From positions 1-24,954 of IMG/VR virus record IMGVR_UViG_3300035670_007385: 24,954 bases of DNA, one strand, 5' to 3'. This document shows, piece by piece, positions 1 to 11,394 of this stretch. The stretch comes from a virus. The position numbers and the translations under genes are program-made. The notes below the pieces were generated by a model. It made no database searches and had not been told where the DNA came from. It saw nothing but the letters and a program-made list of their open reading frames with translations. Each line of letters starts with the position of its first letter. The stretch's first letter is position 1.

Positions 1-48
1 GGCACCGGGACCGCGCGGGCCTCGGTCAACTGGAAGGAAGTCCGGTGA
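1..48 (+). CDS. 3' end of an upstream late gene (partial)
   Basis: The first 16 codons are open in frame 1 and end at TGA 46-48, encoding the last 15 residues of a protein whose body lies left of the window. The tail is short and basic and cannot be assigned. In HK97-type phages the gene before the protease region is usually the portal protein, so a portal C-terminus is the best guess from position only. The stop overlaps the GTG of the next small ORF (GTGA), the same coupling seen at most junctions in this window. Confidence 0.5.
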   Translation, partial: GTGTARASVNWKEVR

Positions 49-167
49 TCCTGCTCCTGTTCACGCCCTATCCCGGCAAGGCGGGCGGCATCGCCGGCCC
101 CGTGAGCCCAACCCGACGCCGTCGGCGCGATACCGACGACGACCTGCTCCTGGCGGTGCTGCTGTGA
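45..167 (+). CDS. Small 40-aa protein of unknown function
   Basis: A GTG at 45 overlaps the upstream stop. A purine-rich GGAAGGAAG lies just before it and can serve as ribosome binding site. The 40-residue product has a hydrophobic start (VILLLF), a glycine/proline middle, a five-Arg run followed by an acidic Asp stretch, and a leucine-rich end. I do not recognise a family. The coupled start and filled gap argue that it is translated, but it could also be a chance frame. Its place before the head protein and protease suggests a head-module accessory role at most. Confidence 0.45.
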   Translation: MILLLFTPYPGKAGGIAGPVSPTRRRRRDTDDDLLLAVLL

Positions 168-194
168 CAAGGAATATTCACAAGGAGATCGGCC

Positions 195-653
195 GTGACG
201 GCTAGCAGATCTGGGCGAGCCTACGTTTCGGCCGTCCCCACCCTCGACACCGCTGCCTACGCGGCCGGTGACGTGCTGACCAACGCCTGCGTCAGCTTCG
301 ACGAGATCGTTCGGACGGACCAGCTCTCGGCCGTCATCCACCGGATGGTCGTCCACGACGCCGCCGGTCAGAACGCGCCGATGGAGCTGTGGCTCTTCGG
401 GACCAACGTGTCGGCCTCGAACGGCTCGAACCAGATCTTCTCGATGACGTCCAACGTCGCCGCGAACACGCTCGGCGTCATCGGCACGGGCCCGTGGGTC
501 TCGATGGGCTCGAACTCGGTCGCCATCGCGTCGAACATCGAGCTCCCGATCCTGCTCCCGACCACGACGCTCTACGCGCTCCCGGTCACCCGCGGCGCCC
601 CGACCTACGCCGTGAACTCGCTCAAGATCACGCTCGACGTCACGAGGGACTGA
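195..653 (+). CDS. Small virion protein, possible head decoration or stabilisation protein
   Basis: A 152-residue protein with GTG start at 195 and a good AAGGAG Shine-Dalgarno about 8 nt upstream. It is rich in Ser, Thr, Asn, Val and Ala, with alternating hydrophobic stretches typical of an all-beta fold and no membrane segment. The pattern is an N-terminal Ala/Gly segment (AAYAAGDVL), a central W-L-F strand, and a C-terminal segment ending in VTRGAPTYAVNSLKI. This resembles a widespread family of phage structural proteins of unknown exact role found beside capsid genes. It stands three bases before the protease gene, so co-expression with the head genes is clear. Decoration or stabilisation of the capsid is inference; the family resemblance is from memory of the pattern. 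Confidence 0.55.
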   Translation: MTASRSGRAYVSAVPTLDTAAYAAGDVLTNACVSFDEIVRTDQLSAVIHRMVVHDAAGQNAPMELWLFGTNVSASNGSNQIFSMTSNVAANTLGVIGTGPWVSMGSNSVAIASNIELPILLPTTTLYALPVTRGAPTYAVNSLKITLDVTRD

Positions 654-656
654 GCC

Positions 657-1316
657 GTGGACGCCCTCAAGGCCGAACAGCTCGCCACCTCGAAGTGGCG
701 AGTGCTCGCTATCCCGTTCGGCGGCCCGCTCGCGGGCGGCCGGGACCTCGACGGCGAGTTCTTCAGCCCGCGCACCGACGTCAAGGCGTCGTGGTTCAAG
801 GAGCGCCCCGTCCTGTTCCACCACGGGCAGGACGAGGAGCTCGGCGACGCCGAGCTCGGCATCGAGGGTGAACTGACCAAGCAGGATGACGGCTGGTGGG
901 CGCAGGTGTGGCTCAACCGCAGCCATCGCTACTGGTCGCAGGTCGATGCGCTCCTTCGCGCCGGCAAGATGTACGGCTCGTCGGGCGCGCTCGGCCACCT
1001 GGTCCGCAAGAGCCGCGACGGCGAGATCCTCGTCTGGCCGCACATCGAGCAGACGCTCACGCCGACCCCTGCCAATCCCTACGCCCGCGTCACCGCCGGG
1101 AAGGCGCTCGCGGGCTTCGACCTAGCCGGCATCGAGATGGACGCATCGCTCCGAGGCGTCCTCTCCGAACTGGACCGCTTGACGGGCGACCTTCGTCCTG
1201 ACCTTCCCGCACCCGGCGAGCCCTCGGGCGACCTTGGCGCGGGCGGCGATGACGCGGCGAGACGCCGACTCGCGGATGCCCTTCAGACGCTGGAGGCGCT
1301 GCTTCGCAAAGTCTGA
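657..1316 (+). CDS. HK97-type prohead maturation protease
   Basis: A 219-aa serine protease of the phage prohead (U35-like) group, which removes the scaffold-like N-terminus of the capsid protein during head maturation. The fold's landmarks are in order: FHHG with His55/56, then YGSSGAL with Ser108/109, then the HIEQTLTPTPANP segment with Glu131. In this family a His, a Ser and an acidic residue form the active site, and the 'TPTPANP' tail of the core is characteristic. The C-terminal third (after about residue 150) is Ala/Leu/Arg/Asp-rich and probably helical, as expected for a region lost after assembly. The GTG at 657 follows the upstream stop by three bases. The gene directly precedes the major capsid gene, the usual order. 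Confidence 0.85.
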   Translation: MDALKAEQLATSKWRVLAIPFGGPLAGGRDLDGEFFSPRTDVKASWFKERPVLFHHGQDEELGDAELGIEGELTKQDDGWWAQVWLNRSHRYWSQVDALLRAGKMYGSSGALGHLVRKSRDGEILVWPHIEQTLTPTPANPYARVTAGKALAGFDLAGIEMDASLRGVLSELDRLTGDLRPDLPAPGEPSGDLGAGGDDAARRRLADALQTLEALLRKV

Positions 1317-1368
1317 CCAATCCGGTGCTCACACGGGCGGTCCCTACCCGAAAGGAACCACCCGCGCC

Positions 1369-2652
1369 ATGAACGGAGACCTCGACCAGAAGGTCGAAGC
1401 CCTCACCAAGTCCATCATGGACCTGGCTTCGGAACTCAAGGACAAGAACGAACTGCCGCTCGACCGCGTGACCGCGATCGAGGCCGAGATCGCCGCCAAG
1501 TCGGCCGCGATGGACGACCTCATCGCCGAGAAGCGCGCCAAGGAAGTCGATGCGCGGCTCGCGCAGCTCGACGAGCGCCTCAAGGCGTACACGCGCGAGG
1601 CTGCCGAGTCCAAGACGGCCGCGATCCTCGCGGGCGTCGAGCACCGCACCAGCGGCGTCAAGTCGGTCGGCAAGTACTCCGAGACCAACTTCCTCTCCGC
1701 GCTCGTCGCGCGCCGCTACGGCGACACCGACGCGCAGGAGTTCGTGAAGGGCGTCCTCGGCACGTCGGCCGCGACCGGCCAGGCCATCGTCCCCGGGAAC
1801 TTCGTCGCGGACCTCGTGACGCAGCTCGGGCTCGTCAACATCTACCGCGGCCTGTTCGACGTCACCAACGGCGTCTCGGGCGCCGGGGTCAACGTCCCGT
1901 ACGAGGCGACCGCGGTCACCGCGGCGCTCGTGCAGGGCGCCTACGGCTCGAACAAGGACATCCGCGACTTCGGGTTCGCGTCCGCGACCGCCACGCTCTA
2001 CACGATCGCGCAGATCGCCGACATCGGCAATCAGCTCCTTCGCCAGAGCAACGGCGGGGCCGAGCGCGCCGCCCGTCGGCGCCTCGCGCAGTCCATCGGC
2101 ATGACCGAGGCTGCGTACGTCACGAACGGCTCCGGTTCGGGCGAGCCGCTCGGGTTCTTCCCGGCCATCATGGCCTACGGCGACGTCGCCGCGTTCAAGA
2201 CGGCCCTCTCGTCCGAGCCGCGGCTCGCCACGCTCGCCCGGGGCATCGCCGCCCTGGAGACGCGCGGCGTCATGCGCGACAACCTCGTCATGGTCACCGA
2301 CCCGACCACCTACTGGGAGATCGCGTCCGAGGGCCTCGGCTCCGCGTACGCCGGCGGCTGGGCCGTCGATCCCGCAGGTGGCGCGGCGGCCAACCCGCCC
2401 ATCACCTCGGCGTGGGGCGTCCCGCTCCGCTCCGACCCGAACTGGCCGTCCGCCGAGGCCGGCAAGCTGCTCATCATCGACCGGTCCGAAGTGGACATCT
2501 TCACCGGCCAGGAGTTCCGCATCGACGTTTCGAGCGAGGCGGGCAGCCGCTTCGACCAGAACGTCACGGGCTTCCGCGCCGAGGAGGAGTTCGCCTTCAA
2601 CGCCGAGCCCGCCGTTCGCACGGGCCGCGTCCAGAAGGTGACCGGCCTCTAG
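1369..2652 (+). CDS. Major capsid protein, HK97 fold
   Basis: A 427-aa coat protein building the icosahedral head. Residues 1 to about 85 are a charged heptad-like coiled coil (many Glu, Lys, Ala, Leu), corresponding to the scaffolding delta domain that the neighbouring protease cleaves. The remainder has the HK97 coat pattern: QAIVPGNF near residue 135, VPYE, a central helix with LLRQSNGG, a GSGSGEPLGFF turn, then ALETRGVMRDNLVMV and a C-terminal strand region ending at FNAEPAVRTGRV. I chose ATG 1369 because AAAGGAAC stands just upstream and the coiled coil starts there. The frame is open back to 1234, but that part overlaps the protease gene. Cleavage is expected in the region after the coiled coil; the exact site is not visible. 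Confidence 0.93.
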   Translation: MNGDLDQKVEALTKSIMDLASELKDKNELPLDRVTAIEAEIAAKSAAMDDLIAEKRAKEVDARLAQLDERLKAYTREAAESKTAAILAGVEHRTSGVKSVGKYSETNFLSALVARRYGDTDAQEFVKGVLGTSAATGQAIVPGNFVADLVTQLGLVNIYRGLFDVTNGVSGAGVNVPYEATAVTAALVQGAYGSNKDIRDFGFASATATLYTIAQIADIGNQLLRQSNGGAERAARRRLAQSIGMTEAAYVTNGSGSGEPLGFFPAIMAYGDVAAFKTALSSEPRLATLARGIAALETRGVMRDNLVMVTDPTTYWEIASEGLGSAYAGGWAVDPAGGAAANPPITSAWGVPLRSDPNWPSAEAGKLLIIDRSEVDIFTGQEFRIDVSSEAGSRFDQNVTGFRAEEEFAFNAEPAVRTGRVQKVTGL

Positions 2653-2708
2653 TCCCTCTCATCCGGCGGCCAAGCCCCGCAGCGTACCGGGCTACTGCCG
2701 TCGGCGCC

Positions 2709-2729
2709 TGACCCCACGTCACGGGGTCA
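2709..2729 (+). terminator. Hairpin after the capsid gene, possible attenuator
   Basis: A perfect 7-bp inverted repeat, TGACCCC / GGGGTCA, with a 7-nt loop lies 56 nt after the capsid stop. No run of T follows (CTTCC only), so full termination is doubtful. It could attenuate transcription so that capsid mRNA exceeds that of the downstream cassette, or protect the 3' end of capsid mRNA. Confidence 0.4.
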
Positions 2730-2735
2730 CTTCCA

Positions 2736-2799
2736 TGCCCATCGGGACGGCAGACGTCCGGGTTCGCCCGGAGTGTGAGCCGGCTGCCGTCCCGGGGCA
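2736..2799 (+). other. Long bulged stem-loop in the non-coding spacer
   Basis: Arms 2743-2753 (CGGGACGGCAG) and 2784-2794 (CTGCCGTCCCG) are perfectly complementary over 11 bp. The stem extends outward by five more pairs (2736-2740 with 2795-2799) after a 2-nt bulge at 2741-2742. Inside the loop is a second perfect hairpin, TCCGGG-TTCG-CCCGGA (2757-2772). The whole 175-nt spacer between capsid stop and the next likely start is otherwise without a gene. Such a nested structure is unlikely to arise by chance and suggests a functional RNA, for example a transcript stabiliser, an attenuator or a processing site. It is not a tRNA: no D or anticodon arms can be drawn. Confidence 0.6.
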
Positions 2800-2827
2800 C
2801 CCACCTTCTGCGGAGGGCTCACAACCC

Positions 2828-3553
2828 GTGGAACCGTTCACGCTCATCGAACGTCGCACGCCGTCGGGGCTCAAGTTCCCGGCGACCGAGCGGCACGGCA
2901 CCAACGACGGCGCCGTGATGTCGGCCATCCTGGGCGACGACGAGTACCGGCTGGCGTCGCTCTACCCGATCACCGGCTGGGTCCTCGACGTCGGCGCCCA
3001 CGTCGGCACGGTGGCGCTCGCCATCGCGCTCGACAACCCGGACGCCCGCGTCGTCGCGGTCGAGCCGCTGCCCGCCAACGTCGCGTCCATCGAGAAGAAC
3101 ATCGAGCTCGCCGAACTGGGCGACCGGGTGCTCGTGGAGGCCGCGGCGGCCACCGACACGCGCCACAAGACCATCGACGTCACCTTCAACTACGACTCGG
3201 TGACGGGCGTTGACCAGCGCTACCTCGACCAGTGCCGCTACGTCGGCAACATCTTCCGGCAGGTGCCGGACGGGCCGACCGTGATGTCGGCCTCGGTCAC
3301 GGTCCCGGGCATCTCGCTCCAGCGGCTGCTCACCAAGTACAAGATCGACCGGGTGACGCTGCTCAAGATCGACTGCGAGGGCTGCGAGTGGCAGTTCCTC
3401 CGCAGCAAGGCGATCACGCGGGTGGACCGCATCGTGGGCGAGTACCACGACTCGATGACGTTCGAGGATCTGCGGACCATCCTGGAGCCGACCCACGTCC
3501 TGACCCAATGGACGGAAGGGCCGGTCGGCCTGTTCGGGGCGGTGCTCCGATGA
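2828..3553 (+). CDS. FkbM-family methyltransferase (first of two)
   Basis: A 241-aa SAM-dependent methyltransferase of the FkbM type, a family that commonly O-methylates sugars or small metabolites. Visible motifs: the SAM-binding loop LDVGAHVGTVALA near residues 52-64, the acidic end of beta-2 in VEPLPANV near 77-84, and the family-typical LLKIDCEGCEW near 178-188 followed by GEYHDS. GTG 2828 is preferred because GGAGG lies 11 nt upstream. The frame is open to an ATG at 2735, but that would turn the structured spacer into a Pro/Gly-rich leader. It overlaps the next gene by ATGA. Context with glycosyltransferases suggests methylation of a glycan attached to a virion protein; the acceptor is unknown. 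Confidence 0.85.
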   Translation: MEPFTLIERRTPSGLKFPATERHGTNDGAVMSAILGDDEYRLASLYPITGWVLDVGAHVGTVALAIALDNPDARVVAVEPLPANVASIEKNIELAELGDRVLVEAAAATDTRHKTIDVTFNYDSVTGVDQRYLDQCRYVGNIFRQVPDGPTVMSASVTVPGISLQRLLTKYKIDRVTLLKIDCEGCEWQFLRSKAITRVDRIVGEYHDSMTFEDLRTILEPTHVLTQWTEGPVGLFGAVLR

Positions 3554-4239
3554 AGACCGAAGTCCTCCGGTCGCCGCGCGGCAAGCGCGCCGTCCTCTCG
3601 GCCCGCGACCAGACGACCGACCTCTCGGTCCTCGGCTGCTTCTTCGCGGGCGTGGCGGGCTCCCCCATCGACGACGAGTACGGGCTCGCGGACCTGTACC
3701 TCCGCGGCCGGTTCGTGGACGTCGGCGCCCACATCGGCGGCGTGACGGTGGCCGTCCTGCTCGACAACCCGCAGGCGACGGCCATCCTGGTCGAGCCCGT
3801 GCCCGAGAACCTCAAGGTCATCACGGCGAACCTCGCCAGCAACGGCCTCGCCGGTCGCTGCCAGGTCATCGCCGGCGCCGTCGGGACCGACAGCGTGTAC
3901 TACGGCTTCGAGGGCTCCGAGCACCTCATGTCGAACCGCTACATCGCCAACATCACGGGCGTGGTGCATGGCAAGCGGCCCCTGTCGGAGCACATCGCGG
4001 TCCGGCGGGTCGAGCTCGACGAGCTGCTGCCGTGCGACGTGATGAAGCTCGACTGCGAGGGCGGCGAGTACGCCCTCTTCGCGGACCCGCGCATCACGAC
4101 GGTGCCGTACATCTTCGGGGAGTTCCACGGCGACCCTGACGCCGGGGCCGAGGCCGTCATCGCGGCGCTCGGCGCCACGCACGACGTCGAGATCGTCAAG
4201 GGCGAGGACCAGGGCAACTTCCGGGCGGTGGCGAAATGA
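3550..4239 (+). CDS. FkbM-family methyltransferase (second of two)
   Basis: A 229-aa paralogue of the preceding methyltransferase. It has FVDVGAHIGGVTVA near residues 54-67, LVEPVPENLKVI near 78-89, VMKLDCEGGEY near 163-173, and GEFHGD close to the C-terminus. Shared wording around motif I (DVGAH-G-V, LDNP-A, VEP-P-N) indicates a tandem duplication followed by divergence. The substrate-facing middle differs strongly, so the two probably methylate different positions or sugars. Start ATG 3550 overlaps the upstream TGA, and its own stop overlaps the next ATG, so translation is coupled on both sides. The acceptor is unknown. Confidence 0.85.
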   Translation: MKTEVLRSPRGKRAVLSARDQTTDLSVLGCFFAGVAGSPIDDEYGLADLYLRGRFVDVGAHIGGVTVAVLLDNPQATAILVEPVPENLKVITANLASNGLAGRCQVIAGAVGTDSVYYGFEGSEHLMSNRYIANITGVVHGKRPLSEHIAVRRVELDELLPCDVMKLDCEGGEYALFADPRITTVPYIFGEFHGDPDAGAEAVIAALGATHDVEIVKGEDQGNFRAVAK

Positions 4240-5339
4240 CCACGGCGCTCGGCTACGGCATCCCGAACGTCCTGCTCCTGACGAGCCACAGCATCGCCGA
4301 GCACGACGACCTCGACATGTTCACGCGGATGGGCGTCCCGACGTTCTCCATCGGCGCGTACACCAACCCGCAGCGACCGGGCGACGACAAGCGGCCCGCT
4401 TTGTCAAACGCACCGTACTTTGCGGAGTTCGAGGCGCTTTGTCACGAACAACGGACAAAGCACGGCGACGAGCCCACCGACTTCGTCATCGACTGGGCCA
4501 AGGGCGACCTGCATCCCGATATCGTCGAGTGGGCCGACGTCATCATCGTCCACCACTTCCCCGAGGCGTGGATCGGCGGCAACTGGCCGAACATCGCGGA
4601 CAAGCGCGTCGTCTGGCGCACCTGCGGCCAGTCCGACCCGCGCCTTGAGCGGTCGATGTACCGCTACCGCCGCGAAGGACTGGAGATCGTCCGGTACTCG
4701 CCGCGCGAGCGCACCGTGTTCAGCCGCACTGACGCCTTCGCGGGCGAGGACGCGATGATCCGGTTCGGCAAGGACCCGACCGAGTGGGCGGGCTGGCGGG
4801 GCGACGTCGAGGTCGTCGGCAACATCACGCAGCACATGGCGCAGCGCGGCGACGCCTGCGGCTTCTGGTACTGGGCCGAGGCGACCAAGAACCTGCCGGT
4901 GCGGCCGGCGGGCCCGGGCTCCGACGCCATCGGCGGCATCGGGATACTCGGGTTCGAGGCGATGCGGGAGTACCTCCGCAGCATCCGCACCTACCTGTAC
5001 ACCGGCACCCGGCCAGCCTCGTACACCCTCGGGCTCATCGAGGCGATGATGACGGGCGTGCCGGTCGTGTCCATCGGGCGCGGCGCGTTCGGCTGCGACG
5101 GGCTCCTCGAGCCGTTCGGCATCAACCACGACGACCCGGCGGTGGCCCGGGCCGACCTCGACTTCCTGCTCCGCGACGAGCAGGCGGCGCTCGACATGTC
5201 GGTCGCCACGCGGGAGCGGGCCATCGAGCTCTTCGCGCTCGACCGGGTCATGCGCGACTGGCGCGAGTTCCTCGGCATCCCCGAGCCCTTCGAGGGCTGG
5301 ATGGACACGACGCCCTACTTCGAGGAGGGCGCGGCGTGA
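4236..5339 (+). CDS. Glycosyltransferase, GT-B fold (first of three)
   Basis: A 367-aa predicted sugar transferase. The N-terminus starts with a short Rossmann strand (NVLLLTSHS) and a helix. Residues 98-106 include DVIIVHHFP and 124-132 VVWRTCGQS, as in the acceptor domain of GT-B enzymes. The C-terminal nucleotide-sugar domain shows RTYLYTGTRP followed by GLIEAMMTGVPVVSIG near 265-280, the place where GT4-type enzymes carry the E-x-M-x-G-P signature. It uses an activated sugar and an unknown acceptor. It starts in an ATGA overlap with the methyltransferase and ends in a GTGA overlap with a zinc-ribbon ORF. An AT-richer patch with repeats lies in codons 54-76. Confidence 0.75.
   Translation: MTTALGYGIPNVLLLTSHSIAEHDDLDMFTRMGVPTFSIGAYTNPQRPGDDKRPALSNAPYFAEFEALCHEQRTKHGDEPTDFVIDWAKGDLHPDIVEWADVIIVHHFPEAWIGGNWPNIADKRVVWRTCGQSDPRLERSMYRYRREGLEIVRYSPRERTVFSRTDAFAGEDAMIRFGKDPTEWAGWRGDVEVVGNITQHMAQRGDACGFWYWAEATKNLPVRPAGPGSDAIGGIGILGFEAMREYLRSIRTYLYTGTRPASYTLGLIEAMMTGVPVVSIGRGAFGCDGLLEPFGINHDDPAVARADLDFLLRDEQAALDMSVATRERAIELFALDRVMRDWREFLGIPEPFEGWMDTTPYFEEGAA
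4397..4461 (+). repeat. CGCTTTGTCA direct repeats and inverted copy inside a gene
   Basis: CGCTTTGTCA occurs at 4397-4406 and 4435-4444, 38 bp apart. The second copy forms an 8-bp inverted repeat with GACAAAGC at 4454-4461 (10-nt loop). The patch uses TTG, TCA and CTT codons that are rare nearby. It may be a protein-binding or RNA hairpin site, or simply coincidence in a locally AT-rich stretch. Confidence 0.4.
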
Positions 5340-5500
5340 GCGAGCATCGGGTCGGCCCCGTGGCCGTCGTCATCCGCCGCTGCTCCGAGTGTCACGGCCT
5401 CCTGTGGCGCGAGCCACTCTGGACGTGGACACATAGCCGGTGCGAGGAGACCCGAGCCGATCGGGTCCGCTCCACGGTCCATCCGGCGGCACGGGCATGA
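5336..5500 (+). CDS. 54-aa zinc-ribbon microprotein in the glycan cassette
   Basis: GTG 5336 overlaps the previous stop (GTGA), and TGA 5498-5500 overlaps the ATG of the next gene (ATGA), so both ends are coupled. The product has C16-x2-C19 and a later H33/C36 pair, consistent with one small zinc site, within an otherwise Arg-rich sequence. No family is recognised. It fills the gap between two glycosyltransferase genes exactly, which supports translation. Function may be binding to a cassette enzyme or to nucleic acid; neither is shown. Confidence 0.6.
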   Translation: MSEHRVGPVAVVIRRCSECHGLLWREPLWTWTHSRCEETRADRVRSTVHPAARA

Positions 5501-6546
5501 GAGTCCTCGCCGACTTCCACCATCACGACCTCTTCGAGTCGCTCCAGATCGTGTTCCGCGACCGCTTCGGTTGGGAGCTCGCCCGCCCGGTCGGGATGGA
5601 GTGGTACGAGCAGGAGTATTGGAACCTCGAACGGGTCTGGCACGGTGACGCCGTCGCCCGCCAGTACCTCGGGCTCGCTGGCGATGACCGCGACCTCGGC
5701 GACCGCTGGGAGCGCGACGACCGGAGCCACATCGGGCGCACGTTCACGATGCTCACCGTCGAGCAGGCGCGGGCGTGGCAGCCCGACATCGTCATCGCCT
5801 CGGTGGCGCACAACCAGGAAGGGCTCACGCGCTTCGGCCGCGAGGTCGGCGCCAAAGTCGTGTTCCACCAGGGCAACGTCCGTCTCGACCCGCACGAGGA
5901 CCGCTGGGAGCTCGCGGACGCGGCCATCCTGACGACCACGACCAAGTACCCGACGCCCATCCCGCACGTCACCGTGCGACAGGAGTTCAGCCTCGACGAC
6001 TTCCGGTACGAGCCGCCGCCGCGGGGCGAGCGCCTCGCGGCCTCGTCCTTCGTCCAATGCCTAGCCGAGACCGGCTGGGCGTACGAGATGCTGCTCAACG
6101 TCATCCGGGCCGCGCCCGAGGTCGATTGGCGGGTCTACGGGTCGTACGGGAGCATCCCGCCCGACCAGTACGCCGCTGGCAACCTCAACGTCTGCGCCGA
6201 CATCGGCGCGGCGATGCGGGCGTCCGACGTCGCGGTCCACGTCAAGCGGTGGGGCGACGGCTTCGGCCACGTCATTCACAACTGGTTCGCCGTCGGGCGT
6301 CCCGTCTGGGGCACGGCCGACTGGTACGCCGACTCGCTCGCGGCGCCCTTGTGGGTCGAGGGCGTCACGTCGTTCGACCTGGCGGCCCGGAACACTCACG
6401 AGAACGCGGCGCTCATGCGGCGCTTCCACGAGGACGAGGACTTCCACCTGCGGGCGTGCGAGAACGCCGCGGCGCGGTTCCGCGAGGTCGTGGACTTCGC
6501 CGCCGACGCCGAGCAGATCCGGCGCCTGCTGGAGTCGGTCGCATGA
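5497..6546 (+). CDS. Glycosyltransferase-like protein, GT-B type (second of three)
   Basis: A 349-aa protein with ATG 5497 in the ATGA overlap. The sequence opens MRVLADFHHHDL. A W-rich segment and QPDIVIASVAHN (residues about 94-105) resemble the acceptor half of GT-B enzymes, and AKVVFHQGN follows. The C-terminal half contains VDWRVYGSYG, then SDVAVHVKRWGDGFGHVIHNWFAVGRP at about 240-267. This is the donor-sugar domain position, although the usual Glu of the E-x7-E motif is not obvious. It may therefore be a divergent or altered-specificity transferase. It sits between two other transferases and is coupled to both sides, so a role in building the same glycan is likely. Confidence 0.65.
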   Translation: MRVLADFHHHDLFESLQIVFRDRFGWELARPVGMEWYEQEYWNLERVWHGDAVARQYLGLAGDDRDLGDRWERDDRSHIGRTFTMLTVEQARAWQPDIVIASVAHNQEGLTRFGREVGAKVVFHQGNVRLDPHEDRWELADAAILTTTTKYPTPIPHVTVRQEFSLDDFRYEPPPRGERLAASSFVQCLAETGWAYEMLLNVIRAAPEVDWRVYGSYGSIPPDQYAAGNLNVCADIGAAMRASDVAVHVKRWGDGFGHVIHNWFAVGRPVWGTADWYADSLAAPLWVEGVTSFDLAARNTHENAALMRRFHEDEDFHLRACENAAARFREVVDFAADAEQIRRLLESVA

Positions 6547-10940: not shown

Positions 10941-10962
10941 CCCACCGGAGGCCATTGCTCAC

Positions 10963-11394
10963 ATGACCGAACCGATCCCCGTCCGGGTGCGCGACTGCGC
11001 GTGCCCGGGCGACCCCCATCCAGACGGCGACGTCGTCTACCTGCGCCCGCATCTCAACATCGACGGCGGCGAGGCGGCCGAGGCCGACCTCATCGAGTCG
11101 ATGGCCGACGAGCGCGAGCTCAAGCGCCGGTGGCTGCGGACGTTCGTGAAGCACGGCGCCGTCTCCTGGAACCTGACCGACGCGGAGGGCGAGCCCGTCC
11201 CGTTCGACGTGGACGCGATCCTCGACGACTGGACGCTCGCCCGCCCCGTTGCCGACAAGGCCGCCGACCTGTACACCCAGAGCGTCATCGCCCCTTTCGT
11301 GACGAAACCGGGAGCGCGATCGCCGACTGGACAGACGGCGCCTACGACCTCAGCCACCCGCGGGCAGACGCGCAAGTCGTCCGCATCGCGGTAG
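10963..11394 (+). CDS. Tail assembly chaperone, short (gpG-like) product
   Basis: A 143-aa protein with GGAGG 11 nt upstream of ATG 10963. It has an N-terminal Cys/Asp/Pro segment, then helices with AEADLIESMADERELKRRWLRTFVKHGAV and an acidic middle. It lies directly between tube protein and tape measure, where siphoviruses encode two chaperones that share an N-terminus and coat the tape measure during tail assembly. The last 31 residues past the slip site are Ser/Thr/Arg-rich and look non-conserved, as expected for the unshifted frame. Confidence 0.75.
   Translation: MTEPIPVRVRDCACPGDPHPDGDVVYLRPHLNIDGGEAAEADLIESMADERELKRRWLRTFVKHGAVSWNLTDAEGEPVPFDVDAILDDWTLARPVADKAADLYTQSVIAPFVTKPGARSPTGQTAPTTSATRGQTRKSSASR

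Follow-up and report, generated by a model that had tools for sequence, protein, structure and literature searches.

A hairpin loop complementary to the next ribosome-binding site between the capsid gene and an enzyme cassette of uncultivated phages: a probable lock on translation

The 24,954-base viral record analyzed here is called the window. Its plus strand carries an HK97-type major capsid protein gene at 1369–2652 (Pfam PF05065, Phage_capsid, E 8.8e-20), and the RNA element under study lies directly 3′ of this gene. The element is followed, also on the plus strand, by a cassette whose first gene, at 2828–3553, encodes an FkbM methyltransferase (PF05050, E 7.6e-15) and starts with the GTG at 2828. 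The second cassette gene (3550–4239) encodes another FkbM methyltransferase (PF05050, E 7.9e-9), and the third (4236–5339) has no Pfam match at E 0.001; the start of each overlaps the preceding stop as ATGA. A Shine-Dalgarno sequence, GGAGG, can be read at 2812–2816 (+). A consensus scan for intrinsic terminators, i.e., a G+C-rich stem followed by a T run, found none on the plus strand at positions 1–6000. An ATG at 2735 is open and in frame with the GTG at 2828, and a 31-codon N-terminal extension through the hairpin is formally possible. It was rejected as a general start because the relatives L006 and L008 have no ATG at that place.

Folding places a 7-bp hairpin (P1) with the loop ACGUCAC at 2709–2729 (+), followed by a long hairpin (P2), in which the 5′ arm at 2736–2753 (+), with an AU bulge at 2741–2742, pairs through 2736–2740 and 2743–2753 with the 3′ arm at 2784–2799 (+), giving 16 pairs in total. 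Nested in the P2 loop is a 6-bp hairpin, UCCGGG-UUCG-CCCGGA, at 2757–2772 (+). An earlier note, made from the sequence, had described the 7-bp, the bulged 16-pair and the TTCG-closed 6-bp hairpins, and all three are present where it located them. Further 3′, the ribosome-binding site (RBS) itself forms a hairpin (P3) at 2808–2831 (+), with arms at 2808–2813 and 2826–2831 and six pairs, two of them G-U, which holds part of the Shine-Dalgarno sequence and has the start codon in its 3′ arm. The folding energy of 2690–2815 is −62.9 kcal/mol (z −2.14), and 4 of 200 shuffles fold equally well. Thus, the fold of the window alone is only moderately better than shuffles in its GC-rich background.

The P2 loop contains a segment, UGUGAGCC at 2774–2781 (+), that is complementary in 8 of 8 positions to GGCUCACA at 2816–2823 (+), which runs from the last Shine-Dalgarno base in the direction of the start codon. 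The predicted energy of this duplex is −13.0 kcal/mol, and none of 23 foreign RBS regions matches the window P2 loop equally well, while the P1 loop shows no match to the RBS (loop-shuffle p 0.997). Judged from the letters, P2 together with the predicted loop:RBS pairing is an H-type pseudoknot, or a kissing-loop complex if P3 is formed. The range of the element given earlier, 2709–2799, includes the hairpins and ends too early, as the kissing partner, P3 and the start codon at 2828 all lie further 3′. The suggestion of an “attenuator, RNase site or stabiliser” likewise took no account of the loop:RBS match, a feature indicative of control at the initiation of translation.

Near relatives were collected by a capsid protein search of IMG/VR, and L064 and L092 were added by RBS patterns; such pattern searches of viral contigs also matched unrelated places (6 of 15 stretches in one search and some in others). 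The near set consists of 23 distinct spacers of one kind, including the window, in which pairs were counted by script since the alignments A3 and A4 misplaced gaps. P2 is present in 23/23 spacers. Its inner ten pairs are standard in 228 of 230 cells, compared with 128.1 on average and at most 148 when the 3′ letters were shuffled (n = 2000), and as many as six pair types occur at one stem position. It is this comparison, and not the modest result for the window, that bears out the claim of pairing beyond GC-rich expectation. Near relatives have letters in common, and the GAGC:GCTC core of the kissing pairing is invariant among them, which makes most of their kissing pairs uninformative. The position immediately preceding the core is variable, and it pairs in 22/23 spacers (C:G in 10, T:A in 7, A:T in 5 and C/C in 1); shuffles give a mean of 11.0, and 0 of 20,000 reach 22. 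Compensatory changes thus occur in the stem and in the loop:RBS pairs, the latter as one variable position in near relatives and as other letters in far ones. Covariation, the lack of which would have spoken against a functional RNA, is therefore found in both parts, supporting a structured RNA where the capsid gene gives way to the enzyme cassette and a drop in expression would be expected. P3 with at least four contiguous pairs is found in 20/23 near spacers. The UUCG hairpin within the P2 loop is confined to the window and does not occur in the other 22 near loops as listed. When the whole upstream spacer is used instead of the loop, several near relatives do not exceed foreign regions (L007 22/35, L034 17/38, L002 10/39). 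The best run then falls within a loop in 31 of 55 spacers, with about 17 expected, and outside the loop in some near relatives.

Distant capsid relatives show the same plan in other letters, with matches of up to 11 bases; examples are L094 (ATCCTCTCTG:CAGAGAGGAT, 10 bp), L110 (TCAGCCCCT:AGGGGCTGA, 9 bp), L113 (GCCCGCCCC:GGGGCGGGC, 9 bp), L114 (8 bp) and L131 (GGGGCAG:CTGCCCC, 7 bp). For counting, a rule that was set only after the pattern had been noticed by eye required a hairpin of 8 or more pairs whose apical loop (closing bases included) forms an uninterrupted run of 6 or more Watson-Crick pairs with the 24 bases 5′ of the next start. This rule was passed by 34/55 spacers 3′ of the capsid gene versus 83/1982 foreign RBS regions. 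In 29 of the 34 passing spacers, no foreign region matched the loop equally well, and the others had some such regions (L002 1/24, L003 1/22, L007 6/27, L009 2/30, L100 2/33). In a control with hairpin-bearing spacers of 46 loci, 13/17 passed behind the capsid gene versus 4/25 before other genes, and the counts became 15/19 versus 2/23 after the mislabelled capsid spacers L113 and L131 had been corrected. L118 and L121 have 8 pairs and fail the rule, with hairpins that run into the 24-nt zone. The hairpin routine missed L118, L121, L015 and L157, and in L161 it picked another hairpin (9 bases, 0/55 foreign regions); these five loci were judged by eye and then folded. The loop-shuffle test did not detect the nested P2 of the window. 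Loci with identical spacers (L010, L013, L030–L032, L036, L037, L050/L095 and L130), L016 as a near copy of L015, re-fetched contigs and records ending in or just behind the capsid gene were left out, as were L025 (no gene assigned), L108 and L120 (no start assigned) and L075 (hairpin cut by the record end). L023, the spacer of which is too short for the 55-spacer set, was tested among the spacers behind small genes that are described below.

A hairpin with a loop:RBS match, for brevity called a lock, often has more than one target. Two separate targets of at least 6 bases, 7–26 nt apart, lie 3′ of the hairpin in 27/42 locks, whereas shuffled loops give a mean of 0.8 and at most 4 such loci in 500 rounds. 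The upstream target (copy 1) usually lies 5′ of the Shine-Dalgarno sequence, and for 23 of these 27 it falls between −31 and −23 relative to the start codon. Copy 2, at −19 to −7, lies between the Shine-Dalgarno sequence and the start codon or covers the Shine-Dalgarno sequence (L094, L118, L114). In the window, the upstream target is absent and only the RBS copy occurs. This arrangement raises the possibility of a two-site switch, in which the P2 loop would choose between copy 1, leaving the RBS open, and copy 2, closing it, toggled by a ligand, a protein, folding order or time. The window and other loci without copy 1 would then be lock-only versions. We regard this switch as a tentative reading that is somewhat less than an even prospect. 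The frequency of double targets argues for it, and so do both copies in far relatives with other letters (L101, L102, L111, L112, L114). Against it, no second target of at least 6 bases is found in 15/42 locks (including the window, L002, L003, L007, L026, L094, L110 and L131), the variable position pairs with the upstream copy in only 13/19 near relatives compared with 22/23 for the RBS copy, and no conserved unpaired ligand-binding core was noticed.

The position of copy 1 also bears on a reading by analogy in which pairing would activate translation by opening P3 or positioning the start codon. In pseudoknot-dependent plasmid rep genes, pairing activates translation. In repZ of IncB/IncI-alpha plasmids, a loop pairs just 5′ of the Shine-Dalgarno sequence, which activates and is blocked by an antisense RNA. 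Copy 1 in many relatives, though not in the window, resembles the repZ pseudoknot in its position; the activating effect and the antisense RNA belong to repZ and have no known counterpart in the phage element. In 20/23 near spacers, some of the Shine-Dalgarno sequence and, in most cases, the start codon are buried in P3, and hence something must open this hairpin. Copy 2 is the better conserved partner and sits where pairing should block ribosomes, and activation is therefore considered unlikely. An element acting at the DNA level, such as a recombination or cassette-insertion site, would suit a position at the border of variable gene sets. Compensatory changes in the stem, P3 and the kissing pairs, the other letters in distant members and the regular placement relative to start codons make this reading highly improbable.

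Regarding the genes controlled, passes of the rule differ with the gene directly 3′ of the capsid gene: 25/31 for an enzyme gene, 7/8 for another ORF and 2/16 for a small lysine-rich protein gene. In these counts, the enzyme class consists of sequence clusters of which some members were run against Pfam, L106 was classed as enzyme by eye, without a Pfam match, and the small gene of L126 was read as just 14 codons long. An association of the lock with the class of the 3′ neighbour of the capsid gene (Fisher p 1.8e-5) has been superseded, as the lock mostly sits behind the small gene where one intervenes. On a capsid tree of 54 tips, there are 9 changes of the loop:RBS match and 8 changes of gene class; among 6 independent pairs, 4.5 change in the same way and 0.2 in the opposite way (sign test, median p 0.125). 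In 17 contexts, the capsid gene is separated from the next genes by a small gene. Of 13 spacers tested behind this small gene, 10 pass the rule, compared with 16/395 foreign regions, none of which is as good for any of the ten; examples are L111 (CCCTGCCCTTT:AAAGGGCAGGG, 11 bases) and L103 (GTGCCCTCGT:ACGAGGGCAC). L015 has a 6-base match behind its small gene by eye, L116 and L126 have no match in that spacer, and no lock was seen in L096 and L107, where the small gene and its successor overlap. In L098 and L100, the hairpin lies in the capsid spacer, ahead of the small gene, and the loop complement GTGACGC is found beyond the small gene, between the Shine-Dalgarno sequence and the ATG of a gene that is FkbM-like by reading. 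In L103, L104 and L127, another short ORF directly follows the lock, and an FkbM-like gene comes next. Four later contexts gave 8-base matches in L157 and L161 (the contig of L109), both by eye, and none in L155 and L159.

When hand-checked cases are counted, 49/60 contexts have a lock: 34/39 (32 by rule plus L118 and L121 by hand), 13/17 (10 by rule plus L015, L098 and L100 by hand) and 2/4 (L157 and L161, both by eye), where the 60 contexts are not 60 independent events because close kin are among them (L103/L104, L020/L092). Lock-free contexts are L106, L115, L122, L125, L128 and L159 and, with a small gene, L096, L107, L116, L126 and L155; thus, the lock is not essential. In L125, L128 and L159, an FkbM-like gene adjoins the capsid gene, and a hairpin with a GAAA or GCGA tetraloop is found in place of a lock. 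The gene directly behind the kissing partner is followed by an overlapping start in 26/34 contexts, compared with 3/19 of the others (3 not scored; p 3e-5), and translational coupling could hence let one lock hold down a whole cassette. In near relatives, the element is also found ahead of unrelated small genes (L018, L020, L021, L026, L039, L092), which makes a ligand or feedback specific to the methyltransferase unlikely.

Taken together, the element probably locks translation of the cassette in cis, through a pseudoknot or a kissing loop. The sequence evidence pointing to such a lock comprises its position, the covariation of stem and loop, the same plan in other letters, the link to the first cassette gene and the ATGA overlaps. 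The steps that we infer begin with RNA read through from the capsid gene, on which P2 would present its loop. In the cell, the loop would pair with the stretch that separates the Shine-Dalgarno sequence of the first cassette gene from its start codon, giving a pseudoknot or, with P3, a kissing loop, and the 30S subunit would load poorly on the locked RBS. Since the pairing covers the ribosome landing site, repressed initiation at the first cassette gene would be its simplest reading. By coupling through the ATGA overlaps at which the following genes start, a lock on the first gene would reduce the entire enzyme set. The capsid gene would be translated freely upstream on the same RNA. Something would be expected to relieve the lock, and in many relatives, though not in the window, copy 1 could hold the loop instead, freeing the RBS. 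A point against the lock is that the match of L035 and the first target of L098 and L100 are situated 5′ of the Shine-Dalgarno sequence, a location at which pairing would not have to be repressive.

An attenuator, terminator, RNase processing site or 3′-end stabilizer of the capsid mRNA, with an incidental loop match, would explain why a strong hairpin follows the capsid gene in many lock-free relatives, some of which have the plain tetraloop. The plus strand here has no terminator-like site, the loop match is far above that of foreign RBS regions and covaries, and it is found ahead of the enzyme cassette even when the cassette does not adjoin the capsid gene. These points render such a role improbable.

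The hairpin might also act in trans, either after processing into a small RNA or by targeting other phage genes. In L024 (943–960) and L022 (2801–2818), a second RBS, GGAGGGCTCGCACCC, with a TTG start lies upstream of the capsid gene and precedes a 242 aa ORF that is glycosyltransferase-like by reading; no GCGAGC occurs in cis within 600 nt of the L024 site, which thus has no matching hairpin of its own nearby. This RBS with its TTG holds an 8-base complement of the P2 loop in L024, and L022 has the same RBS, which would fit action in trans, although the L024 site may be a cassette gene that moved together with its RBS. Another RBS-like 7-base loop match occurs in 9 of 36 records, including the window, where GCTCACA at 10957–10963 stands directly before the ATG at 10963, behind GGAGG, and matches 7 bases of the P2 loop. 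With three copies of GCTCACA in the window, the match at 10957 may be due to chance, and four of five window matches do not match the kissing segment. No such match is found in 27/36 records, most of which are fragments (the L118 scan was void). Action in trans is accordingly regarded as a doubtful prospect.

Shine-Dalgarno-sequestering pseudoknots are known from the preQ1-II and SAM-II riboswitches, T4 gene 32 and ribosomal-protein mRNAs. The phage element resembles these in that the predicted partner of its hairpin loop lies downstream, at or near the RBS, and it resembles H-type pseudoknots in that few loop bases flank the matching segment in many near relatives, as read from the loops. Unlike the named examples, it has no conserved aptamer letters, no known ligand and no Rfam match; the letters drift as long as loop and RBS match, two targets are frequent, and the element precedes capsid-adjacent cassettes. 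At the gathering score, Rfam gave 0 matches in the window and 19 related loci. A relaxed Rfam search gave four weak matches to unrelated families (E 1.6 to 3.6) for the spacer and none for L018. The lock is defined by complementarity and not by sequence, and would therefore be missed by databases of families with shared sequence. No report of the element was found among the matches listed in the open-access literature, and no capsid relative was found among 50,697 cultured-phage records. According to PMC2837412, Staphylococcus aureus RNAIII makes two loop–loop contacts with rot mRNA (5′ UTR and RBS) that are essential for repression, and it masks the RBS of coa mRNA by an imperfect duplex. The likeness to this system is the pairing of a hairpin loop with an mRNA hairpin loop, predicted in the phage element; RNAIII acts in trans, whereas the phage hairpin and its target are on one RNA. 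Thus, the principle of masking is known, while the phage variant is new and recurrent, possibly a two-site switch.

Across a large group of uncultivated phages, the element is a recognizable RNA signature of where the accessory enzyme cassettes beside the capsid gene begin, and it yields a rule for annotation, namely a hairpin loop complementary to the next RBS. It suggests that cassettes bring their own dose control. To our knowledge, the ways in which phages obtain very unequal protein levels from neighbouring genes on one late transcript have been worked out mostly in a small number of models. A two-site form that is truly a switch would add a very small natural toggle. A more speculative extension, which we consider possible and rather less than likely, is a recurrent sequence-agnostic RNA toggle or timer, with one loop and two mutually exclusive targets 7–26 nt apart around the Shine-Dalgarno sequence. 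It would delay cassettes of virion- or host-modifying enzymes until after capsid synthesis, would be re-formed in different letters whenever the cassette is altered or relocated, and might sometimes reach over an intervening gene (L098, L100) or to a second RBS (L024).

Further observations concern the hosts and the surroundings of the element. In a genome collection, no capsid relative was found with query A1; query A2 gave three decayed capsid-gene fragments in Chloroflexota-labelled bins (L148, L149, L150), a weak hint at the host group. In L110 (4430–4505), a sigma-70-like TTGACG...TACACT was seen by eye between hairpin and RBS; a transcript from it would be without the hairpin and would escape the lock. 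Behind the capsid gene of the distant relatives L041, L042, L054, L097 and L157 lies a conserved pair of small hairpins, of the CTTGCCGTGGGACATCAGGCAGG type and the GACTGRCC-nn-ACCTAA-nn-GGYC type, in a spacer that has no lock; this pair resembles P1 of the window.
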